From a virus, in the IMG/VR virus record IMGVR_UViG_3300042332_001862, positions 1 through 34,186 of that record: a stretch of DNA of 34,186 nucleotides; one strand, 5' to 3'. Both the position numbers and the translations under genes were made by a program. Below the pieces are notes generated by a model, which ran no database searches, was not told the DNA's origin, and worked only from the letters and a program-made list of their open reading frames with translations. The first letter of the stretch is position 1, and every line of letters starts with the position of its first letter. This document shows, piece after piece, positions 82 through 27,450 of the stretch.

Positions 82-3000
82 TTGGCCTTTGTTCCGCTTC
101 ACAACCACAGCGACTACAGCATGCTGGACGGCGCCAGCCAGCTGCCGCAGATGGTGGAGCGGGCCGTGGAGCTGGGGATGCCAGCTCTGGCCCTCACCGA
201 TCACGGCGTGATGTACGGCGCCATTGAGCTGCTCAAGCTTTGCGGCAAGGCCGGCATCAAGCCGATTATCGGCAACGAGATGTATGTGATCAACGGCTCG
301 ATCGAGGATCCGCAGCCCAAGAAAGAGCGCCGCTACCACCTGGTGGTGCTGGCCAAAAACGCAGTCGGCTACCGCAACTTGGTGAAGCTCACCAGCATCA
401 GCCACCTGCGCGGCATGCGGGGCCGGGGCATCTTCTCTCGCGCCTGCATCGACAAGAGGCTGCTGCGCCAGTACAGCGAAGGCCTGATCATCGCCACCGC
501 CTGCCTTGGCGGTGAGATTTCCCAAGCGATCCTCAAGGGGCGCCCCGACGTGGCTCGCTCCGTGGCAGCCTGGTACCAGGAGGTGTTTGCAGGCGACTTT
601 TATCTGGAGATCCAAGACCACGGCGGCACCGAAGACCGCATCGTGAACGTGGAGATGGCCCGCATCGGCGCTGAGCTGGGGATCGAGCTGATCGCCACCA
701 ATGATGCCCACTACCTTGGCGCGGGCGATGTGGAAGCCCACGACGCTTTGCTCTGCATCCTCACGGGCAAGTTGATCAGCGACGAGAAGCGCCTGCGCTA
801 CACCGGCACCGAGTACATCAAGAGCGAAGCAGAGATGCTTACTCTTTTTGCTGACCACCTGGAACCGGAGACGGTGGCCGAAGCGGTGGCCAACACCGCT
901 CGGGTGGCTCAGAAGGTAGAGGATTACGGCATCTTGGGCCGCCCCCAGATGCCCCGCTTCCCGATCCCGGAGGGGCACACGACCGCGACCTACCTTGCCG
1001 AGCTGGCCGAAGCCGGGCTGCGGCAGCGCCTGGGCCTGGTGGCCGGCGAGCCCTTTGATCCGGCCTACGGCGAGCGGTTGGAGTTCGAGCTGCAGGTGAT
1101 GGACCGGATGGGGTTCTCTGCCTACTTCCTGGTGGTGTGGGACTACATCCGCTTTGCCCGCGACAGCAATATCCCGGTGGGCCCGGGCCGGGGTTCGGCG
1201 GCCGGCTCGGTGGCGGCCTGGGCCCTGGGGATTACCAATATCGATCCGGTGGAGCACGGCCTGCTGTTCGAGCGTTTCTTGAATCCAGAACGCAAATCGA
1301 TGCCTGACGTCGACACCGACTTCTGCATCGAGCGCCGCGGCGAAGTGATCGACTACGTGACCCAGCGCTACGGCAAGGACAAGGTCGCCCAGATCATCAC
1401 CTTCAACCGCATGGCCTCCAAGGCGGTACTCAAGGATGTGGCCCGAGTCCTCGACATCCCCTACGGCGAAGCCGATCGACTGGCCAAGCTGATTCCCGTG
1501 GCCCGGGGCAAGCCCGCCAAGCTCAAAGAGATGATCGGCGCCGAATCTCCCAGTCCAGAGTTTCGCGAGAAATATCAAAGCGATCAGAAGGTGAAGCACT
1601 GGGTGGACTTAGCGATACGCCTCGAGGGGACCAACAAAACCTTCGGGGTCCATGCCGCCGGGGTGGTGATCGCCGCTGATCCTCTCGATGAGTTGGTGCC
1701 GCTGCAGCTCAATAACGACGGCCAGGTGATCACCCAATACTTCATGGAGGACGTGGAGGCGATGGGGCTGCTGAAGATGGACTTCCTAGGCCTCAAGAAC
1801 CTCACGATGATCCAGAAGACCGTCGACCTGGTGGAGCAGAGGAGCGGCGTGCGGGTAGACCCCGATGCCCTGCCGGCCGGCGACGAGGACACCTACGCTT
1901 TGCTGGCTCGCGGTGATCTGGAAGGCATCTTCCAGCTGGAATCCAGTGGCATGCGTCAGATCGTGCGCGACCTCAAGCCTTCGTCCTTGGAGGACATCTC
2001 GTCGATCCTGGCCCTCTACCGGCCCGGTCCGCTCGATGCCGGGCTGATTCCTAAGTTCATCAACCGCAAGCACGGCCGAGAGCAAATCGATGTGCCTCAT
2101 CCCAAGCTTGAGCCGATTCTGAGCCAGACCTACGGAATCATGGTCTACCAGGAGCAGATCATGAAGATCGCTCAGGACTTGGCCGGCTATTCGCTAGGTG
2201 AGGCTGACCTGCTGCGGCGAGCGATGGGCAAGAAGAAAAAAAGCGAGATGGAAGAGCACCAGAGCCGTTTCGTGGAAGGGGCCACTAAACGAGGGGTGGA
2301 GGCCCAGGTGGCTGAGGACCTGTTTGAGCAGATGGTGCTCTTCGCTGAGTATTGCTTCAATAAGAGCCATTCCACCGCCTACGGGGCTATCACCTACCAG
2401 ACGGCCTATCTCAAGGCCCACTATCCGGTGGACTACATGGCCGCATTGCTCACGGTGAATGCAGGCGCCAGCGACAAGGTGCAGCGCTATATCTCCAACT
2501 GCAACGCGATGGGCGTCGAGGTCATGCCCCCCAGCGTGAACGCTTCCGGCGTCGACTTCACCCCTGTCGATGGACGGATCCTGTTCGGTCTTTCAGCGGT
2601 GCGCAACCTCGGCGAGGGGGCGATTCGCTCGCTGATTGACGTTCGTGATGCCGGCGGCCCGTTTCAGTTCCTGGCGGACCTCTGCGACCGCCTCAGCGGC
2701 TACCAGGTCAACCGCCGTGCCATTGAGTCGCTGATCCATTGCGGCGCCCTTGACGCGCTTGAGCCTGGGGCTAACAGGGCCCAGCTGATGGCGGACCTTG
2801 ATCCAACCCTTGAATGGTCATCCTCTCGGGCCAGGGACCGGGCCAGCGGCCAGGGCAACCTTTTCGACCTGTTCGGGGGTTCCGTGCTTGGAAGCGCTTC
2901 GCCCGATCTGTTCACCGCCCCGAAGGCGGCCCCGGTGGCCGACTATCCGCCGCAGGAGAAGCTCAAACTGGAGAAGGAGCTTCTTGGCTTCTATATCTCC

Positions 3001-3624
3001 GACCACCCCTTGCGCCAGATTGGTGCCCAGGCGAAACTCCTGGGCCCGACCGACTTGAGCGGCCTGGAGGAGCTGGCCGACAAGGCCAAGGTAAGCGTGG
3101 TGGCGATAGTGACCGAGCTGCGCCAGGTGACCACCCGCAAGGGCGATCGCATGGCAGTGCTGCGGCTGGAGGATCTCACCGGCAGTTGCGAGGCGGTGGT
3201 GTTCCCTAAGTCGTTTGCCCGCTTGGCGGATCACTTGATACTGGACGCCCGCCTGCTGGTGTGGGCGGGAGTAGACCACCGCGACGAACGGGTGCAGCTG
3301 ATTGTGGACGATTGCTGCAGCATTGATGATCTGCACCTGCTGGTGGTGGATCTGCCGGTGAACCAGGCCGGCGACACTGCCGTCCAGCACCGGCTGCGGG
3401 ATTGCCTGCAGCGTCACAGGCCTGACGCAATGAAACGGGAGACGGCGGAAGCGCTGGTGCCAGTGGTGGCCCGGGTCCTGGACGGCGAGCGCGGTCGCTG
3501 CGTGCAGCTCGGGGCCCAGTTCTGCGTGGCGGACGGCGGATCGACCGCCCGGGCCCTGTGCGCTGCTGGGCTTCAGGCCTCTCTGGTGCCCCTGCTTGAT
3601 TCGCCCGGGGTCAGCAAGGGGTAG
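82..3624 (+). CDS. dnaE: DNA polymerase III subunit alpha, cyanobacterial type
   Basis: This 1180-residue protein is the replicative C-family DNA polymerase. The N-terminal PHP domain begins with [13 protein letters not shown] (His7, His9). The polymerase active site has the PDVDTDF motif (Asp411 and Asp413) and a third acidic residue in KMDFLGL (Asp567). Thumb, fingers, helix-hairpin-helix and an OB-fold (about 1000-1085) follow, with a cyanobacterial-type C-terminus, so length and domains look complete. The start is TTG at 82, because the conserved [11 protein letters not shown]-terminus begins exactly there. The sequence [10 protein letters not shown] around Cys758 is the insertion point of the split DnaE intein of many cyanobacteria, and it is uninterrupted here. 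The gene follows another open frame by 20 nt and converges with a phage-type gene 51 nt downstream, with no clear terminator between them. It may be a host gene beside a provirus or a virus-borne copy. Confidence 0.97.
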
Positions 3625-6542: not shown

Positions 6543-8366
6543 TTAGCTCCCCCACCACTCTATGAGGCCCAGCTCTTCGGTTCCATAGCGCTGCACGACC
6601 CAGCTGGCGAAGTAATCGCGTGGCGGCCCGGACTTGAGCGTCGCCTGCAGCCCGCCTGCGCCCCTTTGCGCCGTCTCCAGGCCGTGGGTGGCCACTGCGC
6701 TCAAGGTACCAAGCCCGAGCGCCCCCTGGCCTCGCAAGGCGCCGCTGAGGTCGGCTACCGGTGCAGCAAACAGTACCAGGGGCCCCAGTGAGCCCCGACC
6801 AACCAGGGCCGACTGCAAATTCATGGTCATCACCAGGCGGGAGCCACCCAGGCCACCGCGGCCTGCCAGGGTGCCGCGGGAGCGGCGTTTGGTCTTGGGC
6901 CTGGCAACTCCCAATGCCCCTGCCCCCAGCAGCCGAATCTCCAGGCGCGCCACACGCCGCCCAGGAAGCACCGGTCCGTCGGGCCCGATGCCCAGCACCG
7001 GCACCAGCTGCAAGATGTCGACTCCATCGAGCTGTTGCACAAAGCCGCCCGAGGGCGGATCGAACAACCACACTTCCGTGGTCCCTCTGGGGCTCCACCA
7101 GTCGTTTTGCCGACACCAGGAGTAGGGCGGCTCGGCCGGATCAGTCCACAGGATCGGCTGATTGACGGGCCGGAAGGTGGGGGCCCCGCCCCGCAGCTCT
7201 CCAGTGGGGTCCAGCTCAAGGCCGATCGACGGGGCCACCGCCAGCAGCAGTCGATCGAAGGTGATCAGCTGCTGGCCCAGGGCCCGCCCCAGCTCCTTGA
7301 ATGTGTAGTCTCGATCCAGCAGGGAACGCTCGTCCACCCACTGCCTGTCCTCCATCGAGGGGTAATCGCTGGGCTCGTAGAACGGCACGCCTGCTTGCCA
7401 ACGCATGGCGTGGATGTGCTTGCACTCCCGGCGCCGGTCCACCCGCCGGTCCAAGTCCCGCCATTTCTTGCTGTAGCCAATCGACTCCTGCTCCCAAGGG
7501 GCCTGCTCGCCGCGCCCGGCAGATGCGACCGGGAAGCGGTCTCGTGCCGATCCGCCGGTGCTCATTAAATCGGCAATCTGCCGGCCCTGGTAGTCCGGGC
7601 AGCTGCACTCGAAGCGGTGTGAACTGCACAGGTGCCGGGTTGCATCAGCCCGCCAGAAGACCGGCGCCTGCGGGCTATAGCCAATACGCCTCCAGTAGCT
7701 CCTGGGGCCAGACATCTGGCGGATAAAGGGTCTAGACAAATCGAAGATCAACTGGAACTTCGAAACGTCCACTTCGATCAGGGTCAGCGCCACCGCACCG
7801 ACAGGGTCTTCGGCCAGGTCCTCCGGGTAGAGAGAGCCAGCAGCTGAATCCTCAAACTGATCGCCGACGAACGAGCGCCACACCGCCAACTTGTCCCGGT
7901 CCAGAACACCCTTGACGTCGTAGATCAGCCGGTGCTTGGAGGGGTCGACGTCGTCCCGGTCCAGAGTCAAGCTGCCAGGCTTGATCGATTGAGGCAGAAT
8001 CAAGGCGCCTCGGGGGCGCTGGGTGACATGCCAGGCTGACTCGGCTGAGTTCAGGCTGGCAAACACCTGGGTGACCAAGGGAATGGGCCCGGTCCCGGGG
8101 CCGGTCTTCAGGCGGGCGTAGAAGGCCAGTTGCTGATCAAGCCAGCCTTTGCCGTCCCCGAAGAACATCTGCATCCCGGCTTGCCAGCGCCGGTAGTCGC
8201 TGCCTTTCTCGTAGCTCTCGATCAGGGTCGGAACCCGAATGCCGCCAGACTGGCCCGAGCCGGAGTACAGCCCTCGCGCCCGGCCGGCTACCGGCTTCGA
8301 GAAGTCATCGCCGCCCCGGGGGCGCGGGAACGCGAAACTGGCGCCGTACCCCTTGCCTCGGGCCAC
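6543..8366 (-). CDS. Virion protein with SWIM-like zinc motif and G-x-G-x-L repeats
   Basis: About 607 residues from GTG at 8366, 4 nt past the previous stop; an in-frame TTG at 8399 would overlap that gene by 29 nt. Two features stand out. First, ECSCPDYQ near residue 254 is followed ~58 residues later by ECKHIHAMRW, giving the CxC...CxH pattern of SWIM zinc fingers. I have seen similar motifs in cyanophage structural proteins. Second, the C-terminal ~100 residues hold four copies of a G-x-G-x-L linker (GRGGLG, GRGSLG, GQGALG, GAGGLQATL). The intervening ~250 residues are Trp-rich and unrecognised. It lies among tail genes and is probably a tail hub, nozzle or fibre-connecting protein. Zinc binding is inferred. 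Confidence 0.8.
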   Translation of the reverse strand: MARGKGYGASFAFPRPRGGDDFSKPVAGRARGLYSGSGQSGGIRVPTLIESYEKGSDYRRWQAGMQMFFGDGKGWLDQQLAFYARLKTGPGTGPIPLVTQVFASLNSAESAWHVTQRPRGALILPQSIKPGSLTLDRDDVDPSKHRLIYDVKGVLDRDKLAVWRSFVGDQFEDSAAGSLYPEDLAEDPVGAVALTLIEVDVSKFQLIFDLSRPFIRQMSGPRSYWRRIGYSPQAPVFWRADATRHLCSSHRFECSCPDYQGRQIADLMSTGGSARDRFPVASAGRGEQAPWEQESIGYSKKWRDLDRRVDRRRECKHIHAMRWQAGVPFYEPSDYPSMEDRQWVDERSLLDRDYTFKELGRALGQQLITFDRLLLAVAPSIGLELDPTGELRGGAPTFRPVNQPILWTDPAEPPYSWCRQNDWWSPRGTTEVWLFDPPSGGFVQQLDGVDILQLVPVLGIGPDGPVLPGRRVARLEIRLLGAGALGVARPKTKRRSRGTLAGRGGLGGSRLVMTMNLQSALVGRGSLGPLVLFAAPVADLSGALRGQGALGLGTLSAVATHGLETAQRGAGGLQATLKSGPPRDYFASWVVQRYGTEELGLIEWWGS

Positions 8367-8370
8367 CGAA

Positions 8371-8904
8371 TCAGTAGAACCCGCCCTGGGCCGCCACAAT
8401 TGCCTGGGACGGCCCGAAGCTGGACTGCAGAATCACGCTGGCCCCTGCGTACAGATACCAGCCACGGGGCAGGATCAGCCCGGTGTTCTTCTTGTCCAGC
8501 TCGGACGGATAGGCTGCCACGGTCGCAGCTGGTGAGGCCAGGTTGGGCACCGGAGCCAGCAAAGGCAACAGCGGCAAGTTGGTCCGCTGCCCCAATGAAA
8601 GTGACAAAAAGTCAGCGCTAGCCACCGTCCAGGCGTTGGAGCTGTTCAGGCCTGCAGCCGTGGACTGCTCGCTGGCCACCACAATCAGGCGGGCAGCAGT
8701 GATCCCCGTCTCCGGGGCAACCGCCGTGATGCTGTCGATCATGCAGCCATCGCTGCCGCTGTCGACAAGCAAGCGCAGACCAGCTGGCACGAGGCTTCGC
8801 AGGTTGGTTGGTGTCGAGAGGGCTGCAGTCTCGCCGACACCGACGATCTTGAATAGGGGGCGATCAATCAGCAGCGGCTGTTTGTTGGTCGAACTCGAAG
8901 ACAT
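8371..8904 (-). CDS. Probable virion structural protein
   Basis: A 177-residue protein with ATG start, rich in Ser, Ala, Leu and beta-forming stretches (LFKIVGVGETAAL, LRLLVDSGSDGCMIDSITAV, GWYLYAGASVILQSS). The pattern of short strands ending in a GWYLYAGASV segment suggests a beta-sandwich tail or neck protein, and I have seen comparable proteins near tail genes of marine phages. No definite family. It lies in the - strand virion operon, 9 nt after the preceding gene and just ahead of the SWIM-motif protein. Confidence 0.7.
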   Translation of the reverse strand: MSSSSTNKQPLLIDRPLFKIVGVGETAALSTPTNLRSLVPAGLRLLVDSGSDGCMIDSITAVAPETGITAARLIVVASEQSTAAGLNSSNAWTVASADFLSLSLGQRTNLPLLPLLAPVPNLASPAATVAAYPSELDKKNTGLILPRGWYLYAGASVILQSSFGPSQAIVAAQGGFY

Positions 8905-11615: not shown

Positions 11616-12764
11616 TCAGTAAACGAAGGAGTAGGCAACCGTCACGAAATCCCTGTTCAGAAGTTCAAACGCTCCGAAGAGGCTCCACACCATGATGATG
11701 AAACGTCCGAAGTCGTCATCGTTGCTGAGCAGGATTTGGGCATCCTTGCCGCCGATGCCGACGCCGACCGACTGGGGCCCGAAGAACAAAATCGGAGCCG
11801 TAGGGGTCACAGCGTTGGTGATCGACGCACTGGTGATCGTCGCCTGGAGGCTCTTGGCTGCCAGATTGGTCGACTCGAACCAGCGGACGCCTTCAAAAAG
11901 GAAGCCCGTGGGCGAGGTTTGCTGACCGTTGATCGAACCGGCTTGCCCGTAAGCGGGGCCCATGCCCAGGAAGTTGTGGGCGTTGGGATGCAATGACGGA
12001 TTCATCGGATCGATCACCCCATTGCCGGGGTAGCGAGCGACTTCCCGGAAATCCTTGTCCTGACGAAGGTGCATGCCCGCGGTTGGCGCGTAGATGGCCC
12101 TGTAATAGCCATCGTCGAAGCGGGGTACATTCCGCTCGCCCATGTCTTTAACTACAGGCAGCAAGTCGTTGACGACCGAGAATTTGCCGGTGTCGGTGCC
12201 GGTGCCGGCGTAGGTGAGAAATGGTGCGCTGGCAGCGCGAACCTTGGCGCCAGGGTAGTAGTAGCCACCCCTGGTGGAACTGGCCGGGCCGTTGGACTCA
12301 GCCTTGAACAGTTCGTCGGAGAAGACGCGGTCCTTCCAGCGGCGGTAATCATCGAGCATGGTCATCGAACCGATGCTCTGGTGGAACATATTGATGTTCC
12401 CGTAGTCGAGCAGCAGTCGCTGACCGGTGAGCAGGGTCTCGCGGGCCACCTTGAAGGTCGAAGGCGCGGCGGGGTCGTTCGGGTCGGCGGGGCCGGTGTA
12501 CTCCTCGAGGCTCACCAGCACTTTGTCCTTGACGATATTCCGGGAGGAAGCCGTGCCAAGGGTCTGGTCAGCGGTGCGCTTGCGGCTGTCCTTGGTGCCG
12601 GGGTTCCCCCAGAACCGGTAGCGGTCCAACTGCACGGTCTGACCGGGAGATTTACCCCAATCCCAAACGACCAGGGGAGCCGACACCATTTCCACCACAT
12701 AGCTCGGGTGAGGCCGGTGGAGTTCAACCCCAAGCAATTTTGGAAAATCGTTGTCGATCCACAT
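11616..12764 (-). CDS. Probable major capsid protein
   Basis: The 382-residue product has an ATG with a good ribosome-binding site (GGGAGA, 9 nt upstream). Its size, lack of low-complexity sequence and composition fit a HK97-fold capsid subunit. The segment order resembles N4 gp56-type capsid proteins: VQLDRYRFWG, DKVLVSLEEYTGPAD, ARETLLTGQRLLLDYGNINMFHQ, a central DDGYYRAIYAPTAGMHLRQD, then ILFFGPQSVGVGIGGKDAQI and a hydrophobic C-terminus. It heads the - strand virion operon, next to a probable decoration gene and a terminator. Oddly, it is separated from terminase, portal and scaffold by a block on the other strand. Another large shell protein is the main alternative. Confidence 0.65.
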   Translation of the reverse strand: MWIDNDFPKLLGVELHRPHPSYVVEMVSAPLVVWDWGKSPGQTVQLDRYRFWGNPGTKDSRKRTADQTLGTASSRNIVKDKVLVSLEEYTGPADPNDPAAPSTFKVARETLLTGQRLLLDYGNINMFHQSIGSMTMLDDYRRWKDRVFSDELFKAESNGPASSTRGGYYYPGAKVRAASAPFLTYAGTGTDTGKFSVVNDLLPVVKDMGERNVPRFDDGYYRAIYAPTAGMHLRQDKDFREVARYPGNGVIDPMNPSLHPNAHNFLGMGPAYGQAGSINGQQTSPTGFLFEGVRWFESTNLAAKSLQATITSASITNAVTPTAPILFFGPQSVGVGIGGKDAQILLSNDDDFGRFIIMVWSLFGAFELLNRDFVTVAYSFVY

Positions 12765-12793
12765 GGCGTGGCGTCTCCCGTGTCGCGTGATCT

Positions 12794-12808
12794 GTCTTAA
12801 TCTAAGAC
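12794..12808. promoter_or_regulatory. Palindrome in the divergent intergenic region
   Basis: GTCTTA-ATC-TAAGAC is an exact inverted repeat of 6-bp arms around 3 bp, lying in the 65-bp gap between the capsid gene (- strand) and the adhesin operon (+ strand). It could be an operator acting on both directions. No convincing sigma70 hexamer pair was found in this gap, so the late promoters may be of another type. Confidence 0.4.
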
Positions 12809-12829
12809 TGGTGAATCGGGAAAACTTGC

Positions 12830-13522
12830 ATGACGCCAGACCAGGCTCGCGGCCTGTCTTCTGTCCTTGTCTCCAGCGGCAGCTTCTACCTGTTACGCCG
12901 CCCCACGGTCAGTTACATCGAGATCGTCTGGTCTGGCTCCCAGCGCCAGGCCGCCTACTTCCACGAAAAGGTTGCCGAAATTCAGCATTTTTTCCCGACA
13001 ACCGCCCAGGTCTCTCCAGGGACTATTCAATCGCCAGGGCTGCGCTTCAAAATCACCAGCGATCGTCTTCGGCCCCTCTACAACCTCTTCGTACCCCGCG
13101 GCAGCCGCCGGATCTCCTCGGCTTGCCTGGAGCTCTGCGGTGCCCGAGCGATTGCCTGGCTGTTCAGCGATCACGGCCGCCGCACCCCCCGCGGTTTCGA
13201 GCTTGGCTCCGTGGCCCGCCACGCGGAAGAGGCTGTCCTGCTGGCTCAGTGGATCAAGACCATTCTGGGTGTCGACTGCCGAGCCCGTCTGCGCGGCCGG
13301 CGCCTTGCCCTGCTCTTGGACCCGACCAATGCCGCCAAGGCTGCTGAGCAGTTGCTTGACTACAGCCCCGCCTCGCGCCGCCACCTTTTCCTCCAGCTTC
13401 TCAATGACCGCGATCCCGTTTGCGACCCGTGTGATCTGCTACTGCTTGGGGACCAAGGGGCAGCTAGACCTGCGCGGCAAGCGCTCGCGCCCCTGGCTCA
13501 AACTCCGCCGCTCGGAGCTTGA
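12830..13522 (+). CDS. Degenerate LAGLIDADG-fold protein 1
   Basis: The first ~190 of 230 residues follow the layout of LAGLIDADG_2 homing endonucleases: a first helix motif (LSSVLVSSGSF), a strand region with RFKITSDRLRPLYNLFVP, a second helix motif (AIAWLFSDHG), then the helical EEAVLLAQWIKTILG segment and a YSPASRRHLF ending like the family's PSM.YK. The acidic residue that binds metal before the last Gly of each motif is replaced by Ser (SSG) and His (DHG), so it is probably not a nuclease. The last ~38 residues run out of family and overlap the next gene. It opens the + strand adhesin operon. It may be an inactivated or re-purposed endonuclease; the call rests on pattern recall. Confidence 0.65.
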   Translation: MTPDQARGLSSVLVSSGSFYLLRRPTVSYIEIVWSGSQRQAAYFHEKVAEIQHFFPTTAQVSPGTIQSPGLRFKITSDRLRPLYNLFVPRGSRRISSACLELCGARAIAWLFSDHGRRTPRGFELGSVARHAEEAVLLAQWIKTILGVDCRARLRGRRLALLLDPTNAAKAAEQLLDYSPASRRHLFLQLLNDRDPVCDPCDLLLLGDQGAARPARQALAPLAQTPPLGA

Positions 13523-14024
13523 GCAGACCTACCTGGACCACCAGGTGAGGATGCTCAGGCGCCTTCATCCCCAGCCGGGCAGCTTCAAGGTGCACTGGAA
13601 TCGGCTCAGTGCCGATTCGGTCTACGACGACCTGGTTGCCGAGTTTACCTGCCCTGAACTCTGGGGCGCTTACGATCTCCTCTACCCCCGCGACCGCCGT
13701 CGCATCACCAGCGAGGCCCTGGTCGCTGCCGGGCTGCCGGGGCTGGCTGCTGCTTGGCTTGACGAGGGAGAACGCAATCCGCAAAGCGCCAAGCTGCGCC
13801 TGTTCGGCCCTGGGCCTAGCGACGTTGAGATCCTCGGCTGGATCGAGAGTCTTGGAACCCCGGGCCGCATCGCGCCAGGGCCGCGCCTGCAAATGTCCCT
13901 GGCTTTTGATCAGTGGCAGGCTGACACTCTCGTGCGCCAAATTCGTCCTCTTGTGCACCGCAGCATGGCCTATCGCTTGAGGCCCGCAGCCCCGGGCGCT
14001 CGTGCCCTTTACGCTGGCCTTTGA
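13404..14024 (+). CDS. Degenerate LAGLIDADG-fold protein 2 (tandem paralogue)
   Basis: From ATG 13404 this is 206 residues. It repeats the layout of the gene before it: VICYCLGTKGQ as first motif, a strand region, LWGAYDLLYPRDRRRIT, then LAAAWLDEG as second motif and VHRSMAYRL at the end. In motif 1 the metal-binding acid is Lys; in motif 2 a Glu remains. The gene starts exactly where the homology of protein 1 ends, in the +1 frame and with no visible ribosome-binding site. The two could therefore be one protein joined by a frameshift, or an old fusion that split. Its stop overlaps the ATG of the next gene (TGATG). Confidence 0.65.
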   Translation: MTAIPFATRVICYCLGTKGQLDLRGKRSRPWLKLRRSELEQTYLDHQVRMLRRLHPQPGSFKVHWNRLSADSVYDDLVAEFTCPELWGAYDLLYPRDRRRITSEALVAAGLPGLAAAWLDEGERNPQSAKLRLFGPGPSDVEILGWIESLGTPGRIAPGPRLQMSLAFDQWQADTLVRQIRPLVHRSMAYRLRPAAPGARALYAGL

Positions 14025-16270
14025 TGCCGGCGCAGTCCTCAATGGCAGGCCAGGGAGGGGGCAGGCCCTGGCGGGACCTGGGACCGCTGACCACTCAGTC
14101 CAGCGTCCAGCGCGGGACGATCGGCGAGAGCAGTGGCGCTGCCACCTTGCTGCTGGCCTTTCAGCTGCCGCGCCCGGCGACCGTTTTCGTGCGGCTTCTG
14201 CCGCTCTCGCCATTCACTGATCGTTTTGTCGACGCAGCGTTGCAAGACGCAAGCGGCCACGGGATTGCTCTGGCGGACGACGGCCGGGCGGTTTTCGTCA
14301 ATGCGCTCAATACTCCGGCCGACGAGGCCCGCAGGCGCCTTCCTGCCGGCGACTACCGCGTTGTCATTAGCACCAGCCAGTGGCAAGAGGCCCCCTTTGC
14401 TCTCCAGCTGGACTCTTTCGCTCTGGAGAGCCCGCGCCTAGCAGCGGCAGGACAGGGGCGACTGCGCGGCAGGCTGTCTACCGCAAGACCAGAGGTCTTT
14501 TTCCGCGCTCGCGGTGGACTGAGGGCTTCCCTGCAGCCTGTCGATTCTCTGCTCTGGCGAGGCACAGGCGCCGCCGGCCTGCGGGCTGGCCTGCAAGTGC
14601 TCCCCAGCTACAAGGAGCCGCCGCCGGCGGGGTTGGGCCACGTTTGGTTTATCCGTCAAACAGGCCCAAGCGGGCGCCTGCGCCTGGGAGCTGCAAGCGG
14701 AGTGAATTGGACCACCCTTGAATTGAGCGACATCCTGCCGGGGTACATCACTTCCGAGCTGGCCCTGCCTGACTTCCGCTTCAATGCCGGGCGTCGCACG
14801 ATCTTTTCGGACCGCGCCTACGACATTTACGGGGCCTACCCAGAACTCGGCGTCGCCCCGCCTGCGCTCCGCGCCCAGGTCTCCCCAGACGCCCCAGGGG
14901 TGCCTTATTTGGATCTCACCAACGGCCGCCATCGCCGCGAGGTCTTGGTCTCCTTACCTCTCGACGCAAGCCGCTGCTTGGTGCTGCACCTCGAGGAAAC
15001 TTTGGCGTGGAACAACGACGTCATTCTTGACGTTGACGACGCACTGCCTGTCTCTCCCCGGCTGATCGTGAGCAATCGACGCCGCTCCTGGTTTCACCGC
15101 CGGCGGGTCAACACCTTCGTCACCGACGGACTGGCGCTGCGGCGGCTGCAGAACCCTCCGTCCGCCCTACTGCTGCAGCTCGATACGGTCCTGCCGCCCC
15201 TGGATCAGCAGCTGGTGGAGCGCGCGGTCCGGGTGCCTGGGCCCTCGTTTCGCCTGCCGCCTTTGCGGATCCTCTTCCCCGTCTTTGTCGCCGAAGCTCG
15301 TCCACCGGCGCCGGGCGACGTCGTCTTCGGGGCTGACCCCAGCGAACGCGCCGCGGGACTGCTTCTCAGTTACGGCATGACCCGTCTACTGGCCGCTGAC
15401 ACCTTGATGAGTTCGATGGCGATCTACCGGACCCTGGAGGATTTTTCGGCCATTGCCGCCAAGGCGGACTATGACCCCAAGGCCACTGGCTTCGTGATCG
15501 CCAACATTCCGGACCGCCCTGACGGGCTGCCGATTCTCAGCCTCTGGCTGAGGGATGGTGGCTATCGCGTCACAGGAACCGCCACCGGGTCCTACCAGGC
15601 CCCTGGCGATCAGCTATTGCGCTACGGACGCTGGAACGGCCCCTTGCCTGCGAGAACTGACACGGAAGTCAGCGCAGCCGACCCTCGCTGGTCGCTGGCG
15701 GCCCAGGGATTAGCCCTGAGTGCTGACCGGTTGTTCCGCACCGAGGCGCCTTCGGTGCTGCTGTCCTATGACTGGGGCAACGGCGCCTACTGCCGCCTGA
15801 AGCTCCAAGGATTGGGCTTCAGTGATGAGGATCTTTCGGTCGCCCCGCCTGAGCGACCGCAAAGCGGTACTCTCAACGGCGGGCGCCCGCGCCCCCTGGC
15901 CGGACGGGGCGGGCTGGCGCTGGGGGTGCTCATTGCCCAGCAGACCCGCCGGTTGCGCGTCGTCCAGCACGGCCGAGGGCAACTCATGAGCGATTTGGCT
16001 TGGGGCCCTCGCGGCCGACTCAAAGCTCGGGGCCAGCTGAGGGCAACTCTCACTGTTGCTCCCGATCTCACGATCGTGCAGCGGCTCCTGCGCGGCTTCC
16101 TTGCTGGCGCGGGCGGCCTTGATCGCAGCCAGCTCAACCGACCCCCGACTCGACTGACCGGCCGAGGGTCCCTTGGCCGCCCCTGGCTCAGTTCCAAGCC
16201 GCCAAACGAGTTTCCGCTGGCCAGAGCCACCGGCCAAGGGCGGTTGATCGCGACCCTGAGCGCCACTTGA
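14024..16270 (+). CDS. Large tail adhesin 1 with G-x-G-x-L repeats
   Basis: This 748-residue protein starts at an ATG overlapping the previous stop. Residues ~35-135 form a beta-sandwich-like module ending SQWQEAPFALQL, clearly paralogous to the same region of the next gene (SQWQSTPFELVL). Three G-x-G-x-L units follow (GQGRLRGRL, ARGGLRASL, GAAGLRAGL), then a ~430-residue beta-rich region with no recognised family (FIRQTG..., GYRVTGTATGSY), and a C-terminal ~125 residues with six further units (GRGGLALGVL to GQGRLIATL). The architecture suggests a trimeric or extended tail fibre with domains joined by repeats. It should be cotranslated with the LAGLIDADG pair. Confidence 0.75.
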   Translation: MPAQSSMAGQGGGRPWRDLGPLTTQSSVQRGTIGESSGAATLLLAFQLPRPATVFVRLLPLSPFTDRFVDAALQDASGHGIALADDGRAVFVNALNTPADEARRRLPAGDYRVVISTSQWQEAPFALQLDSFALESPRLAAAGQGRLRGRLSTARPEVFFRARGGLRASLQPVDSLLWRGTGAAGLRAGLQVLPSYKEPPPAGLGHVWFIRQTGPSGRLRLGAASGVNWTTLELSDILPGYITSELALPDFRFNAGRRTIFSDRAYDIYGAYPELGVAPPALRAQVSPDAPGVPYLDLTNGRHRREVLVSLPLDASRCLVLHLEETLAWNNDVILDVDDALPVSPRLIVSNRRRSWFHRRRVNTFVTDGLALRRLQNPPSALLLQLDTVLPPLDQQLVERAVRVPGPSFRLPPLRILFPVFVAEARPPAPGDVVFGADPSERAAGLLLSYGMTRLLAADTLMSSMAIYRTLEDFSAIAAKADYDPKATGFVIANIPDRPDGLPILSLWLRDGGYRVTGTATGSYQAPGDQLLRYGRWNGPLPARTDTEVSAADPRWSLAAQGLALSADRLFRTEAPSVLLSYDWGNGAYCRLKLQGLGFSDEDLSVAPPERPQSGTLNGGRPRPLAGRGGLALGVLIAQQTRRLRVVQHGRGQLMSDLAWGPRGRLKARGQLRATLTVAPDLTIVQRLLRGFLAGAGGLDRSQLNRPPTRLTGRGSLGRPWLSSKPPNEFPLARATGQGRLIATLSAT

Positions 16271-16330: not shown

Positions 16331-19300
16331 ATGACGAATTGGTCGCAGGATGGCGCCCCATCGTTCAACCGACCTGAGCTGGTTCGCTTCGATTCGCTGC
16401 GCGACAGCAAGGACCTCGGGGCGATCACCGACATCAAGGCCCACCTGTCCGGCTTCATCGGCGCCGAAGCTGGCTCTCAAAGCCTGTTTTTCTCTTTCCA
16501 GCTACTTGCGCCTGGTGCCATCCAGGTCCAGACCGTCACAGGCAGCAAGTGGACCGCTCGCTTTGTCTCCGCCTCCCTGCGCTCGGAGTCCGGCAGTATC
16601 GGCTTAGACGATCGCGGCAACGCCCGTGGTGTCGACATTGTCAACAGCATCGACGCTGACGAGGCGCTGGCTCCTTTCCCGCCCGGGAAATACACCGTGG
16701 TGGTTTCCTGCTCCCAGTGGCAGTCAACGCCTTTCGAGTTGGTCCTGCGGGTCAACCCGACCACCAGGTTGCACGCCAATCTCGCTGGCCGCGGCGGACT
16801 TGGGCAGTACACTCGTTTGCGCGTGGCTGTTGCCCGCCTTAGCGGCGCGCTCACCGGCCTCGGCCAACTCCGGGCGCCAGGCTCGGGCCTGTTCTCGGGC
16901 CGCCGCGATCGCCCTCTCGTCGGCGGCTTCCTCGCCGGCAGGGGCGCGCTAACGGGCAAGCTTTCAGTGCGCGAGCCTCTGCGCAGCCTGTCTGGCGCTT
17001 TTCTTGCCGGCCGCGGCGGCCTTGGGGCTTCGACAGTGGTTTCAAACAACCTGGGCCCCAGGATGTGGGCCTCCAGGCTTGTTACCCCAACAGAGGCGAC
17101 AGACAGCGCTAGCTACGCCAGTGTGGCCTTGAGCGAGGCCGATTACAGCCTTCACGCTTTTTACTATCTCCCGCCTGGATCTCCTAGCAGCCAGCGGCGG
17201 CTTGCGGTAACCTACCGCGCCCCTAATGGACAGGTGCTATGGAGCCGTCTTACTGATATTTACTGCTTAACTAATGATACGCGGGGCTGGAAAGTGCTCG
17301 CCTTGACCGGTGGCGACTTCCTCTTGTTCAGTCAAAGCCAGGCGGCCTTCGGCGGTCTACTTGCAATTCGCATCGGACGAGACGGAGTTATTGCTTGGAA
17401 GCGACAATTTGGAGCTCGTATCAATCCTGTGATTATTGGAGGTAGCGACAACGGCAGCGAGATCGAGCAAATCAGTGACGTAGCCCTGCAGCCTTCGTTG
17501 AATCGGGTTACATTCGCCGTTGTCATAGTCAGCGTCACTCCTGGCTATATCACGCTTGACCTTGACACTGGGGCCGCCGTTTCGGCTCGCGCGTTAAGGG
17601 GTGGCACCATGCAGACTGGCCATATACCTATTTTCGACAGTGGCGTCACTCTTAACGCCCCTTTGATCAAGGCGGACGGCCGATTTATACTAACTGGCAG
17701 CAAAAGAGGCCAGCCAGCTTACACATGGACTGTGGAATGCGATAGCGACCTTACCAGCGTCAACACGTTTTACAAATACACTGACGGCACTAGCCTTGTT
17801 TTCGACGGCAGCGCAGTGCTGCATACGGATGGCTCTGTCACGATTGCGGGAGGCAGCGCAATCTCTAGAGGTCGCAGGTTCACTGCTGGGTTTCCCTTGC
17901 TGCAGCTCGCCCCAGATATGACAATTCGTCGGCGCGTCACCAGCGCTGCTGGGAACAGTAACCTCACCCGAGGAGCGCTAATAGCAACTGACGCCCTAGG
18001 GGCCTTGCACTACGGCGACGCAAATGGCATCTATTCGCGGGACTACGAGGGCGACCTCACCTATCGCTATACAACCTTTACTGGGTTGCCGGGGCGCATT
18101 GATGAGGTCTCTTCCACCAAGCCTGGGCCTTGGTTTAATATTGCTAGCCAGTGGGGCATCCTGGCCACATCTACTGCTTCCGATCAGCCAGCACTGGGGA
18201 CGGTAGTGGTAGGCTTTGAGATCGACATGGCGCCTACAACTGTCGCCAATGAACTGAATTACAGTATTACTATCGGCACTTCTGAGAATGTCCCGCAGGC
18301 CCGCCAGGTTACGCCGGCCGTGGTCGCCCTTGATCTTGACGAAAACGACGGCGGCATCGTGCCGATCGCGTTCGTTTCTTTAATAGTCGTCCTCAATACA
18401 AGTACGCCTGCTTGGAACCCAGTCTTTACTGACGCCAGTTCAATTCTTGCCTGGGAATTAACATCCAGCGCTATTCGCCGTGGAACCTCTAGCGAATTTC
18501 CTCAGCTAGCAATTAAGCCCGACCCTGCAATAGAGCCAGACCCTTTAGCTCAGTTTGTCGTTTTTCATCTGCCAGGTACTGGTATTCCTGATACGAACTT
18601 CTTTGTCGACTACTCTCGATTCGTTCATCAGCCGATTCCGCTTGGCAACGTCAAATACTCAACTGAACAAGCCCTTTACCCCGACCTTGGCGGCTTTTTT
18701 GAGCGCACTTCTATTCGCTTTGACGGCATCGAAGACGCAATTGCTTGCGCGCCGTCGCCGGCTTTTCGTTTCGGTAAGGAGAATTTCACAATCGAGGCCA
18801 AAATCTTCCGGCTCAATAGTAACCCTTGCGTCTTGTTTAGCAACAGTCAGGTTGGCGATCCAGGGGCCCATAGTAATAGCTTTTACCTGGCCCTCGATGC
18901 TAATGGGATCCTTGAGATCTTTTCGGCAGGACGCGGCCGGCTTTCCCTTGCCTTCTCTGGATCCCCGAGGCGCACCGTGCCTTATGGCGCTTGGTCTCAC
19001 GTTGCCCTAACAAGAGAGGATCAGGTATGGCGCGTTCACGTCAATGGCCAAGTTGACTCAGCGGCCTGGCGTTACGACCTGGACCTAAGCGCTGGCGCCT
19101 TACTGATTGGCAGAGGAACTCAGATCCCTACGGACGGGAACTGGTCTTCTGGCAATGGCATCCCTGCCGGCGCCAACTACTTTCCCTTCACCGGCTTCAT
19201 GGCCGACATTCGAATCACCAAGGAAGCTGCTCGCTATCACCGCAACTTTCAACCCCGCGCCGCTCCGATTCAATACCTTCCCGCCGGGCCTCCTGCAAGC

Positions 19301-21739
19301 TCGCCAGCAGGAACTGAGCCTGCCGAGACAGGCGCGGCTACCCCCGACCTGGCCTTCAACCGGGTCCTGTTGTTTGCCCGGATGAACGGTAATGACAACG
19401 TCTTTCGCGACAGCGGCCCCTACGACCACAGCCTGATTCCCTTCGGCAACGTCACACAAATTCCTGGCGGCAAATGGGGCGGCAGCCAGGGGGCCTTCGA
19501 CTCTTTTGGTGACTGGGTAGAGGTGCCTACCAACCCCGTGCTGGCCCTGGGGACAGGCGACTTTACTATTTCGATGTGGGCAAAGCGCACCGGCGAAGGC
19601 CAAGAAGCCGACTTCTTCCAGGCCCTGCTGGACAGCCGGACTACCGAGCCTGAATCTCAGTTCTGCCTGCGCATCAACCGCAGCGTCACCGGCCGGCAGT
19701 TGTGCCTCTATGTCGGTGGGGCAATTCGAATCTTGGGCCAGCCCATGGCCATCAACGTTCGCTACCACGTCGCAGTGGTTCGCAGGAGCGGGATCACCTC
19801 TCTCTACATGAACGGGGTTCCTGCCGGCAACACCTGGGCTGATGCCACCAACTACACCAGCACCAGCTGGACGATTGGCCGAGCCCGGTTTGCTGCAGGA
19901 GCCGACCAGTGGTACTTCCAGGGCCACTTAAACGATGTCCGGATTGAGCGCGGTGCGCTCTACGACGGTGCCTTCATTCCTCCGACCGCTCCGACCGGAT
20001 CCCCTCCATCGGCTACGGCACGCTACTGGCGGCTAGTGGATTTGCGCCCCTACCAAGGCTCAAGCGGCGTCTTTTCGCTTTCTGAGATTGCGTTGCATCG
20101 GGGCCGCGACCGGCTGCCTGGAACCACCACGACCAGCCTGCCGGCGCCCAGCTCCGGTCTGCTGGTCAGCACTCAAGACTTAAGCGCCACCTTGAACTGC
20201 GACTGGGGCCGGGCCCCTATGGAGCAGATCGGCAGCTGGATTCAAATCGATGCCGGCGCACCTGTCACAGCCGACGGCTTGCGCCTCGCCACGGCCGGGC
20301 AGTCTGCCCAGGGCGTCTCAGGTTTCACGCTGCAATATTCCAGTGACGGGGCCAACTGGGCCACCCTGGGGCATGTCGCCAGCATCCCGCTAAGCGATTC
20401 AGTTCTAGGCCCTCGGCTGGGTTTCGTGCCCCTGCCCGGGCCGCCCACCGACATTGTTGATGCTGATTTTGATCGCGTCGTTCTCCTGCTGCGCGGCAAT
20501 ATACCCAACGCTCTTGCAACTGACAGCGGCCCCAGAAGATTGACGGTCGACAACGTCAATGTTTCAGCCAGCGCGATCGAAAGCGCTCAAGGCGGGCAAA
20601 GCATGCTGTTCAGTGCTGCCAGCGGCTCCTACTTGACCCTGGGCGCGACCGGCGGTGATACGGGCCGGCGCTCGGTGTACTTCTCTTTCGGGGCTGGTGC
20701 CCTGACGGTTGAGATGGACATTTTTCCGTTGACGGTCCCGGCCAACTATTTCTCGCTGTTTAATACCAATGCCATTGGTGATTCGGCCAGCTACGCCAAC
20801 GGTTTTCAGTGGGTCTTGACAAGCGCAATGAAGCTAGATCTTTACATCAATGGAGCATTCCGTGGCGTTTCACTAGGGTCAGTTAGCCTGCGTCAATGGA
20901 GCCGACTGCGCTTAAGCCGCGACTCTACCGGCATTTGGCGGTACAACATCAATGGCGTGGTCGATTCAACCACTTTTGCTAATACGGTCGACCTATCGAG
21001 CCGCGCCTTCACGATTGGCCGGGACGGGGCCGACACCGGCGCTCCCTACTTCTACAACGGCTACATGGACGAGGTGAAGGTCACCCGCGGACTGGCTCGC
21101 GGCAATACGATACGCATCACCAATCTTGCCTGGACACCGAGCGCCCGAGGACGCCTGATTGGGGGCTTGGTCACGGGGCGGGCCATGCACAGTATCCTGT
21201 TCGCCCGCGGGCGACTGAGCGGAACGCTGGCTACCGTGGCTGTAGATGGCTCGCAAAGCGCAGCATCTATCACCAGCCTGCCTGACGCAAGCCTGCCGCT
21301 GACTGGGTTCGAGCGAGTTGCGATGGACCAGGCCGGAGCGACCGTATCGGCCGGGGGGTTTGTGACAGGCCAGACATACCGGATCGCCGGTGTTGGGTCC
21401 ACCGATTTCAGGCCGATCGGGGCCGCCTCCAACACGATTGGTCTGATCTTCAAGGCCACAGGCCCAGGGACAGGCAACGGCACTGCGGTCGTAATCAGGA
21501 CCGTGGACGCAGCAATCCGAGACATCGCTGGCCTTGCCGCGGCGGCCAGTGTCGTTGAATTTGACACCACGGGCACCCCAAACACGATTTACGTCGGGCG
21601 AGCTCCTGTCGGCACGGACCGGACAGCGGCGGGCTGGACGGTAGAGCGGACTACTTTTACGGCTCAAGGCATTAAAGTGGGCGAGACGCTGACTGCCACC
21701 GGCGCCTGGACTGCACGAACTTCTCTCGCCTACGCCTGA
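16331..21739 (+). CDS. Giant multidomain tail adhesin (propeller-like, three LamG, discoidin-like)
   Basis: 1802 residues from ATG 16331. Order: N-terminal module shared with the gene before (~45-140); four G-x-G-x-L units (~150-235); a long beta-propeller-like region (~240-740) with repeated blades; LamG 1 (~794-980, WSHVALTREDQVWRVHVNG); LamG 2 (~1008-1205, FTISMWAKR, YFQGHLNDVRIERG); an F5/8-type-C-like domain (~1230-1357, YWRLVDLRPYQ, GFTLQYSSDGANW); LamG 3 (~1378-1592); two more units (ARGRLIGGL, ARGRLSGTL); and a C-terminal tail-fibre segment (GGFVTGQTYRIAGVGSTDF). LamG and discoidin-like folds bind glycans, so this is a host-recognition protein. Base composition changes between its segments. 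It is not a tape measure: there are no long helical stretches. Confidence 0.85.
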   Translation: MTNWSQDGAPSFNRPELVRFDSLRDSKDLGAITDIKAHLSGFIGAEAGSQSLFFSFQLLAPGAIQVQTVTGSKWTARFVSASLRSESGSIGLDDRGNARGVDIVNSIDADEALAPFPPGKYTVVVSCSQWQSTPFELVLRVNPTTRLHANLAGRGGLGQYTRLRVAVARLSGALTGLGQLRAPGSGLFSGRRDRPLVGGFLAGRGALTGKLSVREPLRSLSGAFLAGRGGLGASTVVSNNLGPRMWASRLVTPTEATDSASYASVALSEADYSLHAFYYLPPGSPSSQRRLAVTYRAPNGQVLWSRLTDIYCLTNDTRGWKVLALTGGDFLLFSQSQAAFGGLLAIRIGRDGVIAWKRQFGARINPVIIGGSDNGSEIEQISDVALQPSLNRVTFAVVIVSVTPGYITLDLDTGAAVSARALRGGTMQTGHIPIFDSGVTLNAPLIKADGRFILTGSKRGQPAYTWTVECDSDLTSVNTFYKYTDGTSLVFDGSAVLHTDGSVTIAGGSAISRGRRFTAGFPLLQLAPDMTIRRRVTSAAGNSNLTRGALIATDALGALHYGDANGIYSRDYEGDLTYRYTTFTGLPGRIDEVSSTKPGPWFNIASQWGILATSTASDQPALGTVVVGFEIDMAPTTVANELNYSITIGTSENVPQARQVTPAVVALDLDENDGGIVPIAFVSLIVVLNTSTPAWNPVFTDASSILAWELTSSAIRRGTSSEFPQLAIKPDPAIEPDPLAQFVVFHLPGTGIPDTNFFVDYSRFVHQPIPLGNVKYSTEQALYPDLGGFFERTSIRFDGIEDAIACAPSPAFRFGKENFTIEAKIFRLNSNPCVLFSNSQVGDPGAHSNSFYLALDANGILEIFSAGRGRLSLAFSGSPRRTVPYGAWSHVALTREDQVWRVHVNGQVDSAAWRYDLDLSAGALLIGRGTQIPTDGNWSSGNGIPAGANYFPFTGFMADIRITKEAARYHRNFQPRAAPIQYLPAGPPASSPAGTEPAETGAATPDLAFNRVLLFARMNGNDNVFRDSGPYDHSLIPFGNVTQIPGGKWGGSQGAFDSFGDWVEVPTNPVLALGTGDFTISMWAKRTGEGQEADFFQALLDSRTTEPESQFCLRINRSVTGRQLCLYVGGAIRILGQPMAINVRYHVAVVRRSGITSLYMNGVPAGNTWADATNYTSTSWTIGRARFAAGADQWYFQGHLNDVRIERGALYDGAFIPPTAPTGSPPSATARYWRLVDLRPYQGSSGVFSLSEIALHRGRDRLPGTTTTSLPAPSSGLLVSTQDLSATLNCDWGRAPMEQIGSWIQIDAGAPVTADGLRLATAGQSAQGVSGFTLQYSSDGANWATLGHVASIPLSDSVLGPRLGFVPLPGPPTDIVDADFDRVVLLLRGNIPNALATDSGPRRLTVDNVNVSASAIESAQGGQSMLFSAASGSYLTLGATGGDTGRRSVYFSFGAGALTVEMDIFPLTVPANYFSLFNTNAIGDSASYANGFQWVLTSAMKLDLYINGAFRGVSLGSVSLRQWSRLRLSRDSTGIWRYNINGVVDSTTFANTVDLSSRAFTIGRDGADTGAPYFYNGYMDEVKVTRGLARGNTIRITNLAWTPSARGRLIGGLVTGRAMHSILFARGRLSGTLATVAVDGSQSAASITSLPDASLPLTGFERVAMDQAGATVSAGGFVTGQTYRIAGVGSTDFRPIGAASNTIGLIFKATGPGTGNGTAVVIRTVDAAIRDIAGLAAAASVVEFDTTGTPNTIYVGRAPVGTDRTAAGWTVERTTFTAQGIKVGETLTATGAWTARTSLAYA

Positions 21740-27027: not shown

Positions 27028-27450
27028 ATGGCGTTTTCCCAGTACATGGCCACCCAGATACTGAACTGGATGCGCGGCACGGCCATGCCAGCGGCCCCGA
27101 CCGGCCTGTTCATTACCATTCACAGCGCCAGCCCCACTAATGACGGCTCGGCGGCCAACATCACCTCTACGGTTACCGGCAATAACAACCGCATTCAGCT
27201 GCCCCAAGCAGACCTGGCTGCTATCACCTCGGTCGGCGGTGGTGGCTTCGAGAGGCTGAATGCTCAGACAGTGATCATCACCAACAGCGCTGTCAATGGC
27301 GCCTCGGCGTTTGCCAGTCATGCTGCCGTTTGGGATGCCAACACGGGGGGCAACCTGCTGCTCCATGACGCACTTTCGGTGGTGACGGAGATCCAGTTTG
27401 GCGATCTCGTAAAATTCGATCCCTCGACCTTCTCGCTTCGAGTCATCTGA
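27028..27450 (+). CDS. Phage tail fibre protein of the Gp80-like type
   Basis: The 140-residue product begins AFSQYMATQILNWMRGTAMP, then PTGLFITIHSASPTNDG, followed by a variable section and a strand-rich end (VVTEIQFGDLVKFDPSTFSLRVI). This is the layout of small tail-fibre-type phage proteins that open ...N.LLDWL.G.A.....VALH...P...G. They are usually minor tail or fibre components. The ATG is placed where that signature starts. The stop overlaps the next start (TGATG). Confidence 0.8.
   Translation: MAFSQYMATQILNWMRGTAMPAAPTGLFITIHSASPTNDGSAANITSTVTGNNNRIQLPQADLAAITSVGGGGFERLNAQTVIITNSAVNGASAFASHAAVWDANTGGNLLLHDALSVVTEIQFGDLVKFDPSTFSLRVI

Follow-up and report, generated by a model that had tools for sequence, protein, structure and literature searches.

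Which role do two small neighbouring proteins with a predicted homing-endonuclease fold play between the capsid gene and the adhesin operon of a phage? The window analysed here, a 34-kb IMG/VR virus record taken over its whole length (34,186 nucleotides), encodes such a pair, hereafter A and B. Window proteins share 43% (portal), 45% (TerL) and 58% (major capsid protein, MCP) identity with those of Synechococcus phage S-EIV1 (KJ410740), and on these sequence grounds the window phage is a relative of S-EIV1, with a host that we infer. The genes of the locus are the following.

11616-12764, minus strand: MCP gene (PHROG major head protein, E 2e-12), without interruption here
12830-13522, plus strand: protein A, 230 aa, predicted LAGLIDADG_2 fold (Pfam, AlphaFold, Foldseek)
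13404-13522, plus strand: A/B overlap, 119 nt, in different frames
13404-14024, plus strand: protein B, 206 aa, paralogue of A (AlphaFold, Foldseek, profile match to A)
14021-16270, plus strand: third gene of the A/B operon, overlapping the end of B by 4 nt, without a family match
16331-21739, plus strand: large adhesin with laminin-G/concanavalin-like and F5/8-type C domains
27028-27450, plus strand: Gp80-type fibre protein, the final conserved gene of the A/B module in relatives

A and B thus lie between the minus-strand MCP gene and the plus-strand adhesin operon. The initial annotation had placed two neighbouring open reading frames at the head of an adhesin operon, and both points hold, with the lectin-like adhesin and the Gp80-type fibre gene downstream. 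In relatives, the A/B operon, the adhesin and the Gp80 fibre gene are inherited en bloc. S-EIV1 lacks both the A/B pair and the inverted adhesin module before the MCP gene, which are both present in the window phage. At 82-3624 (+) the window encodes DnaE, the alpha subunit of a DNA polymerase III of bacterial type, almost complete and with PHP, polymerase, finger, HHH and OB domains; the S-EIV1 annotation lists a family A polymerase in its place. The S-EIV1 MCP is a single 385-codon reading frame (60853-62007), over which two opposite-strand hypothetical CDS are annotated (KJ410740, 60784-62010). Short repeats resembling LAGRGGLGA..L or LRGRGxLxxxL were read from the translations of the window genes at 6543-8399 (-), 14021-16270 (+) and 16331-21739 (+), three different structural proteins encoded on both strands.

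An overlap of 80-224 nt between genes A and B was found in every pair measured except one (4 nt, relative L158). Fusion of A and B by programmed frameshift across this overlap of about 100 nt was considered and rejected: in L158 the overlap is just 4 nt and in another frame, and the tails of A that fall within it (residues 195-230) are unconserved and predicted to be disordered. Translational coupling of the two genes is likelier. The start codon of A is TTG in nearly all relatives (L133 to L159) and ATG only in the window's subclade.

Do both proteins have the fold of LAGLIDADG enzymes? Protein A matched Pfam LAGLIDADG_2 (PF03161) at 28.7 bits (E 1.5e-6; cut-off 25 bits), and the window's B alone reached 13.6 bits, under the cut-off. 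Among aligned proteins the family was matched by 29 of 29 A at E 0.1 or better and by 19 of 29 B, and the A profile matched the B profile with 98.8% probability. AlphaFold models built with the relatives as alignment (A: pLDDT 79, pTM 0.73; B: pLDDT 90.7, pTM 0.86) show the two-domain LAGLIDADG helix/strand order in both proteins. When the models were compared with the PDB by Foldseek, LAGLIDADG entries filled both lists: the best match was I-WcaI for A (E 7e-9) and I-SceI for B (E 2e-7), with I-DmoI, WhiA and the bI3 maturase among the others. TM-scores were moderate (about 0.45-0.7), and the modelled similarity of A and B to LAGLIDADG enzymes is remote. Searching the PDB by sequence profile gave no match, the fold being visible solely through structure comparison, and tblastn of A and B against an annotated phage collection gave none either. 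Neither protein matched any further Pfam domain, and a fused helix-turn-helix is absent. The Pfam match of A, the A-B profile match and the predicted structures of both proteins bear out the LAGLIDADG_2 layout proposed by the initial annotation, and the pseudo-symmetric two-domain core that it had made its structural check is present in the predicted models of both.

We then asked what stands at the catalytic positions. The register was set by a conserved LDLLG anchor before motif 2, which aligns without gaps to intron-encoded relatives (LDLLG...DDG). An intron-encoded relative from the same phage group reads W-M-D-D-G at motif 2, and we take its second Asp to be catalytic, by the role of that Asp in I-SceI. 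The motifs of the window proteins are these.

12854-12880, plus strand: A motif 1, LSSVLVSSG, acid position S16
13151-13177, plus strand: A motif 2, IAWLFSDHG, acid position H115
13434-13460, plus strand: B motif 1, ICYCLGTKG, acid position K18
13743-13769, plus strand: B motif 2, LAAAWLDEG, acid position E121

In this register the residues named beforehand, Ser and His in A and Lys and Glu in B, were the right ones. At the motif-2 position, 75 distinct A proteins have Gly (60), Ser (10) or His (5) and never an acid. The motif-1 position is Asp in 70 distinct A and Ser or Thr only in the window's subclade. In B, the acid position of motif 1 holds Lys, Arg, Val or a similar residue; at motif 2, Glu in the window and Asp, Glu or Ala in near relatives give way elsewhere mostly to Gln, Arg, Thr or His. 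Canonical acids at both motifs of one protein were found in none of the 75 distinct A or the tallied B. An active homing endonuclease has an acid ending both motif helices of one protein, and neither A nor B does. The proposed loss of the metal-binding acids therefore stands in so far as no protein has both, but B may retain one: Glu121 is not necessarily a loss, since Glu is acidic and can act catalytically in LAGLIDADG enzymes, as does E117 of I-DmoI.

An alignment on W110 would have made residue 114 the catalytic motif-2 residue of A; this was rejected, as the LDLLG register gives 115. Residue 114, just before H115, is Asp in the window and Glu in A homologues, and the corresponding position before the canonical site is Asp in B and in intron-borne relatives. 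Across 70 phages, Asp16 of A is conserved in 100%, Glu114 of A in 98% and Asp120 of B in 98%. Together with Glu121 of the window's B, this conservation would suit a nuclease formed by A and B with a non-standard active site, such as a nickase for packaging, recombination or phage competition. As a precedent, a phage intron endonuclease is reported to help one phage interfere with another during co-infection (PMC11620839). Still, Glu114 and Asp120 stand one residue ahead of the canonical site, where they correspond to the first Asp of the DDG of intron relatives, and the window's A lacks Asp16 yet is still under selection (see below). We consider such a nuclease rather improbable.

Both proteins are basic (mean pI 9.7 for A and 9.9 for B). 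In A of relatives, the polar or basic strand residues R23, Y29, Q31, T33, T35, R72, R74 and R127 are near-invariant and, by sequence, resemble a nucleic-acid-binding sheet; several of them are altered in the window's subclade. These properties also bear on whether A and B might serve the head-fibre/adhesin module in the virion or during assembly, on a reused LAGLIDADG scaffold. Their place as the first genes of the adhesin/Gp80 fibre operon, in a module inherited as a block, would fit such proteins, but the high pI, the conserved sheet residues and the invariant Asp16 of the relatives' A suggest nucleic-acid binding more than a purely structural role. We know of no structural LAGLIDADG virion protein, which counts further against this alternative, and we regard it as improbable.

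To what extent is the pair kept? Relatives were collected across IMG/VR by scans with A, B and portal, and 159 were counted by profile scan. The Pfam model matched in 31 of 50 records chosen by portal or A. Among the 18 unmatched IMG/VR records, 16 have no MCP gene, one holds the last 18 MCP residues at a contig end, and in the remaining one the pair was found with a better model; among the 50, it is truly missing only in S-EIV1. In 105 related loci (75 distinct A) the pair adjoins the MCP gene divergently wherever the fragment reaches MCP, and every clade record holding the MCP start has it. The carriers are a large, mostly uncultured phage group related to cyanophage S-EIV1. In cellular genomes, only four contigs from metagenome-assembled genomes (L248-L251) have the A/B/MCP layout; the genomes are labelled Euryarchaeota and Phycisphaerae, and the contigs are probably misbinned phage. 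The homologues in related phages on which the initial annotation had made its proposal depend thus exist.

A tree of 59 proteins, with long branches and an uncertain root, has all A in one clade and all B in another (100/98) and puts the intron-borne LAGLIDADG proteins in a group of their own; it follows from the two clades that one duplication preceded the radiation. Distances among A correlate with those among MCP (0.93, or 0.77 without the window's subclade; none of 2000 Mantel permutations was as high), and A-B distances correlate at 0.80. As the distances follow those of MCP, A and B do not look like a roaming selfish gene, and the mobile, patchy distribution expected of a homing endonuclease is not seen for them. 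By a simple counting method, with some pairs near saturation, dN/dS in the window's subclade is 0.10-0.47 for A and 0.09-0.71 for B (overlap excluded), values that indicate purifying selection on A even where it has no acids. From the correlation with MCP distances and from dN/dS we conclude that A and B are inherited with the virion genes and selectively kept, and since the relatives found have the pair intact and pass it on vertically, the LAGLIDADG match is not a chance one.

These data leave very little room for the view that the pair is a functionless, decaying remnant of a selfish homing endonuclease. It could appeal to the lost acids and to the position beside an essential gene, which is typical of free-standing homing genes (PMC10448857). 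Set against this are the open frames in the pairs seen, the purifying selection, the co-inheritance with MCP and the near-invariance of D16 and E114 outside the window's subclade, and we rejected a decayed homing gene on selection and synteny. Universal presence in the clade, vertical inheritance and purifying selection are instead strong signs of a domesticated LAGLIDADG fold, which the initial annotation had suspected.

The neighbouring MCP gene is itself a hot spot of group I introns. In relatives, 18 such introns exceed the Rfam cut-off, all of them within MCP; none does so in the window, its 94-kb relative, L008, L010 and L022 (further members of the window's subclade) or S-EIV1. By exon mapping, MCP is interrupted in 27 of 75 distinct loci. 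The junctions recur, near MCP profile positions 5-7, 31-37, 48, 108, 133-140, 214, 231-237 and 282-293. Some introns start after codon 4-17, about 100-140 bp from A, and many are only about 230 nt long. L138, L152, L192 and others have up to four apparent introns per MCP, mostly without an ORF. Intron-borne LAGLIDADG ORFs in MCP are located at L157:10884-11612 (+), L152:7478-8338 (-), L238:1871-2662 (-) and L244:1367-2161 (-); they are distantly related to A and B, and those of L157 and L152 keep both acids (WMDDG and WCDDG). A capsid intron with a LAGLIDADG ORF has been described in mycobacteriophage LittleE (PMC3706429).

The co-occurrence of MCP introns with pair-bearing phages speaks for a function in homing or on RNA. 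A and B might be trans-acting helpers of the MCP introns, either as an RNA-binding maturase pair or as a free-standing partner in collaborative homing, in which case A would nick or cut the intronless capsid genes of co-infecting phages. All 18 introns lie in MCP, some starting near A; related LAGLIDADG ORFs with intact acids reside in some of them; introns are absent where A lost Asp16; and the bI3 maturase is among the structural matches. Furthermore, among portal-sampled records, interruptions of MCP occurred in 11 of the 27 loci with the pair, whereas the S-EIV1 clade, which lacks it, had none among 54 complete MCPs; this is a contrast between two clades that phylogeny may explain. A maturase needs a group I intron in its own genome to act on, and such a substrate is found in some relatives but not in the window; likewise, the adjacency to an intron-bearing gene seen in collaborative homing occurs in intron-bearing relatives, while the window's MCP is uninterrupted. 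Against a helper role, 47 of the 75 distinct pairs adjoin an uninterrupted MCP, group I introns are wholly absent from pair-bearing records of 54-94 kb whose MCP is intron-free, A remains under purifying selection in the intron-free subclade of the window, and the canonical acid pair is missing family-wide. The association of pair and introns holds at clade level, and the pair is independent of introns. We judge a helper role unlikely, although it is the strongest rival, ahead of the unorthodox nuclease and the virion proteins, which are less likely; it may be ancestral and may still operate in the Asp16 relatives.

If the pair binds DNA, the divergent intergenic region is an obvious place to look.

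12765-12829: intergenic region between the MCP and A starts
12794-12808: palindrome GTCTTAATCTAAGAC, the form taken here by a conserved TACTATAR-like box

The intergenic region measures 65-95 nt across loci. In most loci the box (TAATCTAA in the window) starts about 30 nt upstream of A, and it is essentially unique per locus within the surrounding 10-18 kb. The initial annotation had offered the palindrome as a possible binding site, but as an operator it finds no support: the dyad is not conserved, its outer positions pairing in 17-19 of 54 sequences, little above chance. The perfect palindrome is lineage-specific, a conserved box with arms that match by chance in the window, and the box itself looks more like a promoter box. 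A few nt upstream of the box, many relatives (for example L148, L145 and L152) have a hairpin with covarying arms (37 distinct 5' arms; mean stem score 6.2 vs 4.5 in shuffles), which is weak in the window. It usually ends 36-38 nt before A, at a position fixed relative to A. Its imperfect pairs favour neither strand, so the hairpin is not assignable to one RNA.

Taking these results together, we propose, with a probability of about 40%, that the LAGLIDADG pair A and B has been domesticated and, without cleaving, acts as a nucleic-acid-binding factor for the capsid/fibre locus. The pair would stem from a single duplication of a homing endonuclease related to those in the capsid-gene introns of sister phages, and would no longer cleave double-strand DNA. 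The co-translated, basic A and B, probably as an A-B complex, would bind one or a few fixed nucleic-acid sites, for which the divergent MCP-A region and the 5' end of the capsid gene, as DNA or as transcript, are candidates; once bound, they would control how the capsid gene and their own fibre operon are expressed late. A nucleic-acid-binding role is favoured by the fold, the high pI, the conserved sheet residues, the fixed position and the precedents of WhiA and CapR, as well as by the locus-unique box 30 nt before A. On the other hand, all 70 other A proteins have Asp16; its invariance suggests that in them it binds metal or takes part in catalysis, and speaks against a non-cleaving pair. 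The palindrome without a conserved dyad, the absence of an added DNA-binding domain such as that of WhiA, and the changes in the window's subclade at strand residues conserved elsewhere argue against a regulator, as does the tie of the pair to MCP introns. For the group as a whole, our tentative account would be that a homing endonuclease was domesticated group-wide into a core two-subunit factor controlling the capsid gene or its intron-containing transcript, and that the window's subclade lost the last canonical acid of A and kept the factor. One phage group holds side by side two-acid intron-borne relatives, pairs with a one-acid A and pairs with an acid-less A; these coexisting stages make it possible to test stepwise, at the capsid gene itself, how a selfish nuclease turned into a phage factor.

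How does the pair compare with known systems? With the LAGLIDADG_2 homing endonucleases (PF03161; I-SceI, I-WcaI and I-DmoI by fold), A and B share the two-domain pseudo-symmetric fold, predicted in their case, the two motif helices and a basic character, but their acids never occur together in the proteins tallied, and they are two co-encoded paralogues that stay in one place and are inherited vertically. Cells have domesticated homing endonucleases, among them WhiA, HO and maturases. The regulator WhiA (DUF199), one of the structural matches, likewise keeps a LAGLIDADG core for regulation, the role that A and B may have, and not for mobile cutting; A and B differ in being a phage-encoded tandem pair without a fused helix-turn-helix or a shown regulon. 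LAGLIDADG maturases (bI3 and I-AniI type) have the same fold, and A and B of relatives lie near group I introns; unlike maturases, they are not intron-encoded and occur where introns are absent. In collaborative homing a free-standing homing endonuclease stands beside an intron-bearing gene, as in T3/T7-like phages and with F-CphI of cyanophage S-PM2. In relatives, A and B likewise lie next to the 5' end of a gene with introns, but they lack the catalytic pair, are duplicated, are universal in the clade and are present without introns. CapR, a satellite-encoded capsid repressor made from T5orf172 homing-endonuclease DNA-binding domains (PMC10448857), is also derived from a homing endonuclease and tied to control of a capsid gene, which for A and B is our hypothesis only; it belongs to another nuclease family and is directed by a satellite against its phage. 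A search of the open-access literature found no report describing a universally kept, catalytically incomplete LAGLIDADG pair as core phage genes. Already known are the fold itself, the domestication of homing endonucleases and the presence of introns in phage capsid genes; new is the clade-wide tandem LAGLIDADG pair lacking the full set of catalytic acids, in which an ancient selfish nuclease seems to have turned into a lasting part of the phage that probably binds DNA or RNA without cutting.
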